A program made the position numbers and the translations under genes. A DNA stretch of 39,552 bases from positions 1-39,552 of the forward strand of contig JALSUN010000018.1 in NCBI GenBank assembly GCA_027061425.1, given 5' to 3'. Position 1 is the first letter of the stretch; each line of letters starts with the position of its first letter. Shown in pieces: positions 29,447 through 33,495 of the stretch. A model generated the notes under the pieces. It worked only from the letters and a program-made list of their open reading frames with translations. It was not told the DNA's origin and did not search any database. This DNA is from Helicobacteraceae bacterium (GTDB lineage Bacteria > Campylobacterota > Campylobacteria > Campylobacterales > Sulfurimonadaceae).

Positions 29447-30376
29447 ATGTGGGTAATGAAGGTTAATATACGTGTTATTTTCCTCTCTGTTCTATTTTTA
29501 ACCCTATCTACCCTTGCCAATGAGAATGACCTTAACAGCAGCGCTGATACATTTACGCCCATCACTATAGAAAGTAGTACAGACACTCCTTCTACGCCCC
29601 CTGCTAAACACATAGTTAATAAACCAAAAGACACTATTGCTAACACTACTGTTGATGATTTTGAAGAGGATGCCTTTGAGGACGATGATTTTGAAGATGA
29701 CGAATTTTCTGATGATGAATTCAGTGATGAGTTTGAGCCCCCACATAAAGAGATCTTTGATCCTTTAAGTGGGTACAACAGAGTCATGACAAGTTTTAAT
29801 GACGACCTCTATGTCTATGTTTTAGACCCTGTCATTTTTAAAGGGTATAACCTCCTTCCCCATCAAGTACGACTCTCTGTTTATAATTTTTTTGAAAACC
29901 TCTCCTACCCGGTCAGTCTTGTAAACAATATCTTACAACTCAAGTTTAAAAACACGGGTACCGAAACCCTGCGATTTCTGACCAACTCTACGGTGGGCGT
30001 GTTAGGTCTCTTTAATCCTGCAGAGAGTTGGTTTGGACTCAAACCACATAAAGAGGATTTTGGACAGACACTTGGTTACTATGGAGTGGGTGGTGGCTTC
30101 CATATAGTGTTACCTTTCTTCGGTCCTACAAATTTACGTGACTTAACGGGTGATTTTATTGACTTTTATGTCAACCCCATCTATTATGTGGACATACGAA
30201 AATATAATCTGTTTCAAAACACCTATCAAGGATGGGCGGCTATTAGTTATAAAGAGTTTAACAAGATGTCACTCTATACTGAAGAGTATAATAATGTACG
30301 TCAAGACTCTCTAGACCTCTACCCATTTTTACGTGACTTGTACGAGCAACACAGACAACAACAAATCGAGGAATAA
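29447..30376 (+). CDS. mlaA: MlaA/VacJ family outer-membrane lipid-transport protein (no lipobox Cys; acidic N-terminal extension)
   Basis: DPLSGYNRVMTSFNDDLYVYVLDPV, FFENLSYPVSLVNNILQ, GQTLGYYGVGGGFHIVLPFFGPTNLRD. Confidence 0.93.
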   Translation: MWVMKVNIRVIFLSVLFLTLSTLANENDLNSSADTFTPITIESSTDTPSTPPAKHIVNKPKDTIANTTVDDFEEDAFEDDDFEDDEFSDDEFSDEFEPPHKEIFDPLSGYNRVMTSFNDDLYVYVLDPVIFKGYNLLPHQVRLSVYNFFENLSYPVSLVNNILQLKFKNTGTETLRFLTNSTVGVLGLFNPAESWFGLKPHKEDFGQTLGYYGVGGGFHIVLPFFGPTNLRDLTGDFIDFYVNPIYYVDIRKYNLFQNTYQGWAAISYKEFNKMSLYTEEYNNVRQDSLDLYPFLRDLYEQHRQQQIEE

Positions 30377-30377
30377 C

Positions 30378-30962
30378 ATGCGTTTTTTACCCCTACTTTT
30401 TATCACCCTATTTCTAAATTTTAGCAGTGCCTTATGGGCAGATGACAAAAGTGACATCAAAGAGATAATGAAACACTCCATCCATGATGTCACCACACTC
30501 ATACAAGATAAGACCATCACTAAAGAAGTCAAGCATCAAGAGATAGAAAAGATTATCACCCCACTCTTTGACTTTGCGCTCATGGCACGTCTAAGCCTTG
30601 GAAAAAAGCAGTGGAAAAAGATAAGCCCTCAAGAGCGTAAGGCGTTTGTAACACTTTTTAGTCAGCGTATCCGTCAATCTTACATGAGTAAACTCGACCT
30701 CTACACCGATGAAGTTGTTGTTATAGATGATCCAGTTGTTGTTAAAAATCGTATCCATCTACCCACCCATCTTATGCGTAAAAGTGAAAAACGCGATATT
30801 CTTTATAAGTTTTACAAGTCTAAAAGGAAAGGGTGGCTCATTTATGACGTTGATATTATAGGTGTTAGCATCGTTCAAACCTACCGCAGTCAATTTGCAG
30901 GTATTTTGAAAGAGAACTCATTTGAGACTTTAATGGAAAAGTTGAAGATATCAGACGATTAG
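30378..30962 (+). CDS. mlaC: MlaC/Tgt2 family periplasmic lipid-binding shuttle
   Basis: Signal peptide MRFLPLLFITLFLNFSSALWA; MARLSLGKKQWKKISPQERKAFVTLFSQRIRQSYMSKL; GWLIYDVDIIGVSIVQTYRSQF. Confidence 0.92.
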   Translation: MRFLPLLFITLFLNFSSALWADDKSDIKEIMKHSIHDVTTLIQDKTITKEVKHQEIEKIITPLFDFALMARLSLGKKQWKKISPQERKAFVTLFSQRIRQSYMSKLDLYTDEVVVIDDPVVVKNRIHLPTHLMRKSEKRDILYKFYKSKRKGWLIYDVDIIGVSIVQTYRSQFAGILKENSFETLMEKLKISDD

Positions 30963-30984
30963 AAACGCCAAGGAGCATAAATTA

Positions 30985-33495
30985 ATGATACGCCATTTTT
31001 TCAACACCTTTGTTCTCGCCTACCCCAAAAGTATCTTAATCGCTCTCTTTTTGATCTCTGCTGTACTAGGTACTCAAGCATTTAAAATAAAGGTCGATGC
31101 CTCTGCTGAGACACTGCTTCTGGAAAATGACAAAGATTTACAATTTACACGAATAATAGCCGAGCGTTACCATACCCCTAACTATTTGGTCATAGCCTAC
31201 ACCCCTGAAAATGACCTGCTTGCACCTAAAACGCTCAAAGAACTCTCTTCTCTCAGTCAGGCTTTAGAGCATCTTTCGGGCGTCGACTCCGTCACCTCCA
31301 TCTTGAATGTTCCCCTCATGAAAAGCCCTGCAAAGCCTATCAAAGAGATGTTAGAAAACATCCCTACCTTGGCATCAAAAGACATTAATTTCACCCTCGC
31401 CAAAGAGGAGTTTCTCAGTAACCCCATCTATGCCCATAACCTTGTGAGTAGTGACTTCAAGACGACAGCCTTGATGATTAATCTAAAAGAGGATAAACGT
31501 TACAAAATCCTTCTGGAAAAACGCAATTATTTACGACTCTTAAGAGAAGAGGGCACATTAACACCTGCTCAAGAGGTTGACCTCTCCAATGCTTCAAGAG
31601 CCTTTGATCTGCACAGGGACATGACACGCATGTTAGAGAGTAACACCATAGAAAGTATTCGTACTATTATGGACAACTACCGTGATGATGCGACCCTCTT
31701 TCTAGGAGGCGCGAGTATGATTTCTAATGACATGGTTAACTATGTCAAACAAGACCTCAAGACTTATGGCAGCATCGTTCTTATCTTGTTGATCATCGTC
31801 TTATGGATTGTCTTTAGAGAGGTTTACTGGGTCCTTATTCCGGTGACGATAGTTACCATCTCCATTATTGCGACCTTGGGACTTTTAGGAATGCTTGGCT
31901 GGGAAATCACCGTCATCTCTTCAAACTTTATCTCTCTGCAACTTATTATCAGTATGTCTATTATCATTCACCTCGTGGTACGCTATAGAGAACTTTCCAG
32001 TGAAGCACCCCCAGAGATCTCTCAACGTGAACTGGTGTTAGAGACCGTCACTTCTATGTCAAAACCTACCTTTTTTGCTGTGCTTACCACCATCGCAGGA
32101 TTTACATCTCTCATCTTCTCTAACATCTTGCCTATCATCAATCTTGGGTTGATGATGAGTGTGGGTATCGTAGTCTCTCTAATTTTAAGTTACCTCATTT
32201 TTCCATGTGTTGTTCTCTTGATACCAAGAAATCGGCCTAAAAAAGCTTTTGAGGCACAGTTCTCATTCCCCAAGTTCTTTGCAAACGCTACCAAGCGTTA
32301 TGGCACTCTTATCTTAGTGGCTACCTTTCTTATCATCATTTATAGCCTTACAGGGGCCTCTAAGCTACGTGTAGAGAACAGTTTCATCAACTACTTCAAG
32401 TCTTCTACCGAGATCTATCAGGGTATGGTCGTTATCGACCAGCAACTTGGTGGGACTACACCTCTTGATATTATTATAGATTTTCCACCAGAGCCCAAAC
32501 AGTTAGAACAAAAAGAAGATGGTGATGATGAGTTTTCAGAATTTGATGATTTTGAAGAGGAGTTCTCTGCCACAAAAAATGATGCGCAATACTGGTTTAC
32601 CTCTGACAAAATGCACAAAGTCTCTCAAATCCATAATTACTTGGAGAGCCTTCCTGAAGTAGGTAAAGTCCTCTCATTAGGTACCATGCTGGAGTTGGGG
32701 CGCTCACTTAATGATGGCAAATGTTTAGACAACTTTCAACTTGCTCTTTTACATAACGAGCTGCCCCCTAAATTTAAAGAGATCGTTTTAGACCCCTATA
32801 TCAGCATAGAGAACAACCAGACCCGATTTGCACTGCGTATTGTAGACTCCAACCCTGAACTTAGACGCGATGCCCTATTGCACAAGATAAAAGATGACCT
32901 TGTCAACAAACTCCACATCAAACCCGAGAACATCCACCTCTCTAACATCATGGTCCTCTACAACAACATGCTACAGAGTCTCTTTAGCTCACAGATCCTC
33001 ACTTTGGGCATTATGGTCTTACTGCTCTCTGTTATGTTCTTTATGCTCTTTAAGTCACTCAAAGTGACCTTTATCGCTATGGTCGCAAACCTTGTACCAG
33101 TAAGTGTGATCTTTGGATTTATGGGGCATAACGCCATACCGCTCGACATGATGACCATTACCATTGCTGCCATCAGTGTGGGTATCGCTGTTGATAACAC
33201 CATCCACTACATCTATCGCTACAAAATAGAGTTTGCAAAAGATCATGATTATCTTCAAGCTATGCAGCGTTCACATGAAAGTATAGGTTATGCCATGACC
33301 TATACTTCTATAGCTATCATGATAGGCTTTATGATCTTGGTACTCTCATCATTCATACCTACCATCTATTTTGGTCTTTTGACTGTTTTAAGTATGTTTA
33401 TGGCGATTTTGGCAGACTTGATGTTACTGCCTAAGTTGATCTTGTTAGTCAAGCCGTTTGGAAAGGGAACAGAGGGTGAGCGTTTAACGCCTTAG
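30985..33495 (+). CDS. RND/MMPL family transporter (HpnN-like topology)
   Basis: Two sets of multi-TM segments, large periplasmic loops; ITIAAISVGIAVDNTIHYIYRY in the second half; 836 aa. Confidence 0.9.
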   Translation: MIRHFFNTFVLAYPKSILIALFLISAVLGTQAFKIKVDASAETLLLENDKDLQFTRIIAERYHTPNYLVIAYTPENDLLAPKTLKELSSLSQALEHLSGVDSVTSILNVPLMKSPAKPIKEMLENIPTLASKDINFTLAKEEFLSNPIYAHNLVSSDFKTTALMINLKEDKRYKILLEKRNYLRLLREEGTLTPAQEVDLSNASRAFDLHRDMTRMLESNTIESIRTIMDNYRDDATLFLGGASMISNDMVNYVKQDLKTYGSIVLILLIIVLWIVFREVYWVLIPVTIVTISIIATLGLLGMLGWEITVISSNFISLQLIISMSIIIHLVVRYRELSSEAPPEISQRELVLETVTSMSKPTFFAVLTTIAGFTSLIFSNILPIINLGLMMSVGIVVSLILSYLIFPCVVLLIPRNRPKKAFEAQFSFPKFFANATKRYGTLILVATFLIIIYSLTGASKLRVENSFINYFKSSTEIYQGMVVIDQQLGGTTPLDIIIDFPPEPKQLEQKEDGDDEFSEFDDFEEEFSATKNDAQYWFTSDKMHKVSQIHNYLESLPEVGKVLSLGTMLELGRSLNDGKCLDNFQLALLHNELPPKFKEIVLDPYISIENNQTRFALRIVDSNPELRRDALLHKIKDDLVNKLHIKPENIHLSNIMVLYNNMLQSLFSSQILTLGIMVLLLSVMFFMLFKSLKVTFIAMVANLVPVSVIFGFMGHNAIPLDMMTITIAAISVGIAVDNTIHYIYRYKIEFAKDHDYLQAMQRSHESIGYAMTYTSIAIMIGFMILVLSSFIPTIYFGLLTVLSMFMAILADLMLLPKLILLVKPFGKGTEGERLTP

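Follow-up and report, generated by a model that had tools for sequence, protein, structure and literature searches.

Acidic-aromatic arms on MlaA and an adjacent RND transporter, probable docking sites for the lipid shuttle MlaC

In E. coli, the Mla system (OmpC-MlaA, MlaC and MlaFEDB) carries out retrograde phospholipid transport. A flexible acidic C-terminal tail helix of MlaA recruits MlaC, both hydrophobic and acidic tail residues being required; the dissociation constant (KD) between MlaC and the isolated tail is 57 uM, and MlaD is predicted at the same MlaC cleft as the tail (PMC10245069, PMC10719372). An MlaC-like shuttle is also found with an RND transporter, in the hopanoid pair HpnM-HpnN. 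Here we analysed a locus with features of both, in a 39,552-nucleotide stretch (hereafter the window) of contig JALSUN010000018.1, assembly GCA_027061425.1, from a Helicobacteraceae bacterium placed by GTDB in the Sulfurimonadaceae, Campylobacterales. At positions 29447-33495, mlaA, mlaC and an RND/MMPL transporter gene lie head to tail, all on the + strand. MlaA and the transporter each carry an acidic, phenylalanine-spaced tract, and these tracts are probably twin docking arms for MlaC, in an Mla variant whose inner-membrane partner would be the RND pump. The original prediction, made from the window's letters, had proposed such equivalent docking arms, with an HpnN-like RND protein in place of or beside MlaFEDB; orthologues, co-occurrence and co-variation, all of them sequence evidence, support it. 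The main features are as follows.

29447-30376, + strand: mlaA, 309 aa (Pfam MlaA PF04333, E 5.9e-63)
29651-29737, + strand: MlaA acidic-aromatic arm VDDFEEDAFEDDDFEDDEFSDDEFSDEFE, residues 69-97
30378-30962, + strand: mlaC, 194 aa, a basic protein of the periplasmic lipid-shuttle family (Pfam PF05494, E 4.3e-38)
30985-33495, + strand: RND/MMPL transporter, 836 aa (Pfam MMPL PF03176, E 6.9e-29)
32515-32577, + strand: RND acidic-aromatic tract EDGDDEFSEFDDFEEEFSATK, second periplasmic loop, residues 511-531

The locus resembles E. coli Mla in the Pfam membership of MlaA and MlaC and in the fold of MlaC, whose model (predicted local distance difference test score, pLDDT, 92) matched E. coli MlaC (7vr6 and 5uwa) in Foldseek with E 2e-9 to 5e-9. 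It differs in the place of the arm, which is N-terminal in the window MlaA and C-terminal in E. coli: MlaA of the window type extends about 6 residues past its domain, as against 30 in the enterobacterial protein (5nuo). It differs also in that the inner-membrane partner is apparently a motif-bearing RND pump, not MlaD. With HpnM-HpnN it shares an MlaC-like shuttle and an RND transporter, and these two families were the best or specific lipid-type NCBIfam matches (HpnM 3e-16, HpnN 8e-33), at scores far below the model cut-offs (59.3 vs 160.1 bits and 113.4 vs 751.9 bits, respectively); here, however, mlaA is within the operon. The nearest solved relative of the transporter was HpnN by sequence and, by fold, MmpL4, MmpL5, MmpL3, HpnN and NPC1 (Foldseek 9e-23 to MmpL5). 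Like the lipid and siderophore exporters MmpL4, MmpL5 and MmpL3, it has the RND fold with two periplasmic domains (TM-score about 0.66-0.69 to MmpL4/5), but identity is only about 13%, and the MlaC-like shuttle and the disordered acidic loop in the second periplasmic domain set it apart. Residues D737, H741 and H329 were invariant and lie in predicted transmembrane (TM) helices, which would be compatible with proton-driven lipid transport. In the open-access literature searched, subscription papers and preprints being outside its scope, we found no description of an MlaA-MlaC-RND system or of the motif, and novelty is provisional to that extent.

Two acidic-aromatic tracts in one operon

The acidic, phenylalanine-spaced tracts noticed in both proteins were confirmed and recurred beyond this one genome, with some adjustment of their limits. 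MlaA consists of a signal peptide, the acidic N-terminal arm and the MlaA domain at residues 104-305. The arm had been placed from 29654, which is the first Asp; it starts at 29651. Its phenylalanines stand at every fifth residue (72, 77, 82, 87 and 92) and then at 96, and its conserved core, F92-S-D-E95-F96, is encoded at 29720-29734. The five-residue spacing indicated that the arm of the window genome is an expanded, multi-copy form, relatives having one or two copies. The start of the RND tract was correctly given as 32515, but its end was set too short at 32569 instead of 32577, and the tract does not lie right at a TM/loop boundary: after TM7, about 50 residues of the second periplasmic loop precede it. 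In the AlphaFold model of the transporter, residues 505-520 had pLDDT <50 and were followed by a short helix at 520-530 bearing F520, F523 and F527; judging by their spacing, these would share one helix face.

The two tracts also contain an identical DNA stretch, as had been noticed, of 19 nt and not 17:

29652-29670, + strand: 19-nt identical stretch TTGATGATTTTGAAGAGGA, first copy
32543-32561, + strand: 19-nt identical stretch TTGATGATTTTGAAGAGGA, second copy

A possibility was recombination between the copies. We set it aside, since an AT-rich genome that encodes DDFEE with the same codons would show such an identity anyway, a common peptide and codon bias being enough.

No further acidic, phenylalanine-spaced stretch occurred in the six frames of the whole window. 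When the window's own genome was searched with a stringent DNA pattern for the motif, 12 matches were obtained; the RND match alone fell within an envelope protein's disordered loop, the others being parts of folded domains or of short frames open by chance.

As a side observation, the signal peptide of the window MlaA lacks a lipobox Cys (29447-29520), whereas several MlaA orthologues of the order have a Cys near the cleavage site (L045, L048, L059), which indicated that MlaA membrane anchoring differs within the order.

Conservation, loss and clade-wise matching of the motif

We searched 200 genomes of the same order with MlaA, retrieved the operons of the matches and compared their proteins. 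A core motif, [DE]x[F/L/I]xxE[F/Y], was found in essentially all MlaA proteins accompanied by MlaC and, without exception, in the RND orthologues read, so that the tracts expected by the original prediction in close orthologues were found in close and distant ones alike. In MlaA, nearly all sequences had [DE]xFxxE[FY] between the signal peptide and FDPLSGYN (for example DDFESEY, DSFEDEF, DEFDVEF), the first F being sometimes L, I or V; a few had weaker motifs, such as SFTDEM (L045) and NEFQDSY (L059). In the transporter, the motif site was fixed between GGTTPLDIIIxF and YWF in every orthologue of the order, one of them with I for the first F. The motif was thus conserved amid loops variable in length and flanking sequence. 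Over 19 aligned RND sequences (39-60% identity to the window RND), F523 and E526 (32551-32562) were invariant and residue 527 was F or Y; the matching F and E of MlaA were at least 90% conserved. Residue-by-residue matching of F and Y between the two arms inside Campylobacterota, judged by eye, was not consistent.

The motif did not depend on gene linkage. In genus g26, the RND gene is unlinked and the transporter still has the motif. We rejected the idea that mlaA-mlaC pairs lacking an adjacent RND gene have another partner, for an RND gene, motif included, was found elsewhere in those genomes. Two RND proteins deserve mention on their own account: the loop of L314 (G349) has a low-complexity insertion of about 110 residues and keeps DDFGDFEAEY at the same distance before YWF, and L311 (G114 contig 10) is a second, solitary RND copy of 832 aa, off the operon, whose loop contains ELDSFADEF.

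In the first set, four genomes had MlaA without MlaC or RND anywhere, and their MlaA motif was gone or had degenerated to a form without acids (FKANY). Wider sampling of two families added a third lineage (G344 and G359), with neither an adjacent mlaC nor the motif; a genome-wide search found no RND of this type in either genome, mlaC having been looked for beside mlaA only. In the two-family sample, [F/L/I]xxE[F/Y] was kept in 53/53 MlaC-bearing loci and missing in 6/6 loci without mlaC, a seventh such locus, cut by a contig end, being left out of the count. The MlaA tree required three changes, at least two of them forced by well-supported branches.

Outside the phylum, named genomes scanned with the RND alignment yielded orthologues that were about 42-56% identical across some 825 residues. 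They came from SAR324/Lambdaproteobacteria, Desulfobacterales, Nitrospirota, Planctomycetes, Brocadiales, Nitrospinae, Alphaproteobacteria and Gammaproteobacteria, organism names being those of contig titles, many of them metagenome-assembled genomes. Many of these genes adjoin mlaC and mlaA, in the order A-C-RND or C-RND-A. A 12-residue acidic-aromatic tract was present, over 80 scanned loci, in 64/80 RND and 34/45 MlaA proteins, as against 1/53 MlaC proteins and 15/454 other neighbouring open reading frames (Fisher p = 1.5e-52 for RND and 1.9e-31 for MlaA versus these other frames, both overstated by the relatedness of the genomes). Tracts of this kind are therefore not a general feature of unrelated neighbours.

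Where the RND motif differs outside Campylobacterota, the MlaA motif tends to differ alike. Examples are Nitrospinae (RND DDPFAEAAEE, MlaA EDPFAGSSED), Microbulbifer (RND EEDPFAMD/EEDPFAAEDPF, MlaA AEDPFAEVE/GDPFAEG), Desulfonema (RND DDAFIDAFDDTEE, MlaA DDVFLDEDFDDDSE) and Nitrospirota (RND TFSEFDAEFEA, MlaA TFDAFEDEFAS). Whether the tracts co-occur and co-vary had been set as a check on the original prediction. Motif types tended to match between MlaA and RND by clade: a permutation over 18 clades, from which row and column (composition) effects had first been taken out, gave p = 5e-5, the clades being our own grouping and several consisting of one genome. All leave-one-out values were at or below 3e-4, and p was 0.0095 once the five FxxEF/FDEF clades were removed. 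In 11 of the 18 clades, real MlaA-RND pairs aligned better than composition-preserving shuffles, no more than 5% of which did as well.

MlaC and its probable inner-membrane partner

Among the 200 genomes, MlaA was found in 71, MlaC in 66, RND in 67 and MlaE in 181. MlaC and RND occurred together in 66 genomes, RND without MlaC in one (the draft G071) and neither in 133 (Fisher p = 9e-53), an association that held even where the RND gene was unlinked. MlaE was independent of MlaC, being present in 58/66 genomes with MlaC and 123/134 without (p = 0.44); these Fisher values ignore genome relatedness, so that significance is overstated. Eight genomes, including the single-contig G070, had MlaC and RND with no MlaE found. 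Moreover, H. pylori was reported to have MlaFED and neither MlaA nor MlaC (PMC11756786). Together with the counts, this indicated that MlaFED is separable from MlaA-MlaC in the phylum and that RND and MlaC are not. Since MlaE was independent of MlaC and RND tracked it, the RND system would stand beside MlaFED and, in genomes such as G070, exist without it. Judged by phylogenetic profile alone, MlaFEDB does not behave as the inner-membrane partner of MlaC.

The mature MlaC protein is basic (isoelectric point 9.5) and MlaA is acidic. The basic charge of MlaC had been pointed out as K/R patches; the charge stands, while the segments then named are conserved only in part. Conservation of basic residues was highest at K52, R99, K105, R125, K144 and R170, and RND-associated MlaC proteins in and out of Campylobacterota were mostly basic at these six. 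The E. coli protein is not basic at five of them, having N at 52, A at 105, I at 125, D at 144 and Q at 170. The candidate arm-binding patch, drawn from conservation, is as follows.

30672-30809, + strand: candidate arm-binding patch of mlaC (R99, K105, R125, K144; three of the four not basic in E. coli)

Several observations weigh against twin docking arms on MlaC. The E. coli contacts of the MlaA tail, K84 and R90, map to a segment whose conservation here is only moderate. In 3/18 clades (Pelagibacterales-type, Desulfatitalea and Brocadia), the MlaA and RND motifs did not match. The RND gene stands apart from mlaA and mlaC in Gammaproteobacteria and Nitrospinae, and gammaproteobacterial MlaA mostly has its acidic arm at the C-terminus. 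Finally, the window's own genome has, on contig C29, mlaE-mlaF-mlaD with a gene for a PqiC-like lipoprotein; mlaD, mlaE and mlaF had correctly been described as absent from the window. Regarding the gammaproteobacterial proteins, most of those in genomes with this RND (L221-L227, L241) had an acidic-aromatic C-terminal tail, for example VEDDFGSDLDDFDDF, resembling the RND loop, and MlaA may carry the arm at one terminus or the other.

One unlikely explanation is that both arms bind some other common partner (a periplasmic protein, cations or peptidoglycan), MlaC being a mere operon mate. It would account for the acidic-aromatic loop still being there in the Gammaproteobacteria and Nitrospinae, where RND is apart from MlaC. 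It fits poorly with the MlaA motif having vanished in just those lineages from which RND and the adjacent mlaC were lost, with the position of mlaC between the two arm-bearing genes, with the charge of MlaC and its clade-specific conserved basic residues, and with the E. coli precedent of an acidic MlaA arm on MlaC.

It is likewise improbable that MlaC partners MlaEFD, the RND protein having an unrelated job and the tracts being coincidentally similar acidic linkers. A complete ABC operon accounting for MlaA function had been named as a threat to the original prediction; mlaEFD does occur elsewhere in the genome, which favours this alternative, but its presence in the order is independent of MlaC, which RND follows almost perfectly. 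In C. jejuni, the RND gene neighbouring Cj1371-Cj1372 is Cj1373. The pairing of C. jejuni MlaA (Cj1371) and MlaC (Cj1372) with MlaEFD likewise speaks for MlaEFD; the study that made it leaves Cj1373 unmentioned (PMC6549495). On the other side, MlaA-MlaC-RND genomes without MlaE exist, MlaD has no such motif, and the PqiC-like lipoprotein follows MlaD as in Brucella Mpc, a chimeric Mla-Pqi system without MlaC (PMC12436622). The mlaE-mlaF-mlaD-PqiC-like operon resembles Mpc and is separate from the mlaA-mlaC-RND operon, from which Mpc too is distinct.

Two features of contig C29 can be added here. The lipoprotein after mlaD is of the ABC_trans_aux type, and the C-terminal region of MlaD is long, like the Mpc bridge of Brucella (L032:2770-4331); these genes may form a separate, MlaC-independent lipid route. 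MlaE has an N-terminal STAS-like domain (L032:5071-6195; TIGR00377, E 2.4e-5, under the model cut-off) and is possibly, from this similarity, a fused MlaB, a protein stated to be absent in Campylobacterota (PMC6549495, PMC11756786).

Very improbably, the arms bind MlaC but chiefly gate lipid release, an aromatic helix acting against acyl chains at the MlaC pocket, instead of recruiting the shuttle; the aromatic residues are indeed conserved as well as the acidic ones, but the E. coli arm was described as a bait recruiting apo-MlaC (PMC10719372). It is also very improbable that composition drift produced the tracts as low-complexity acidic spacers with no function, repetitive though the window MlaA tract is and variable though the loop lengths are, given the invariant F and E of RND, the pairs that beat composition-preserving shuffles, the 3% frequency in neighbouring frames and the co-loss in three lineages.

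A proposed lipid route across the periplasm

Twin docking arms for MlaC would belong to a periplasm-crossing lipid route made of outer-membrane MlaA, MlaC as a soluble shuttle and the HpnN/MmpL-like RND pump as inner-membrane partner. A disordered arm of MlaA and a disordered loop of the transporter would offer the same short motif, other acidic-aromatic types serving outside Campylobacterota. On folding, each arm would give a short acidic, amphipathic helix that docks at the same basic and hydrophobic site of MlaC, presumably helix in cleft. Were both arms to use one site, MlaC could hold no more than one membrane partner at once and would alternate between the membranes. The cargo would be glycerophospholipid and transport by the RND protein would be proton-driven.

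As a tentative proposal, with somewhat less than even confidence, this may be an undescribed, multi-phylum MlaA-MlaC-RND lipid transport system, in which a proton-driven RND protein replaces the ABC complex and one co-evolving motif docks the shuttle in turn at each membrane. It could be anterograde, and an anterograde phospholipid route to the outer membrane is still debated. The motif would give a sequence-level account of how one soluble lipid shuttle recognises two unrelated membrane proteins. It would also name a likely inner-membrane partner of MlaC for Campylobacterota and several other phyla, where MlaC has been assigned to MlaFED by analogy. The direction and energy source of envelope lipid traffic are long-standing questions, and the locus would offer a candidate energised phospholipid route on which to address them.

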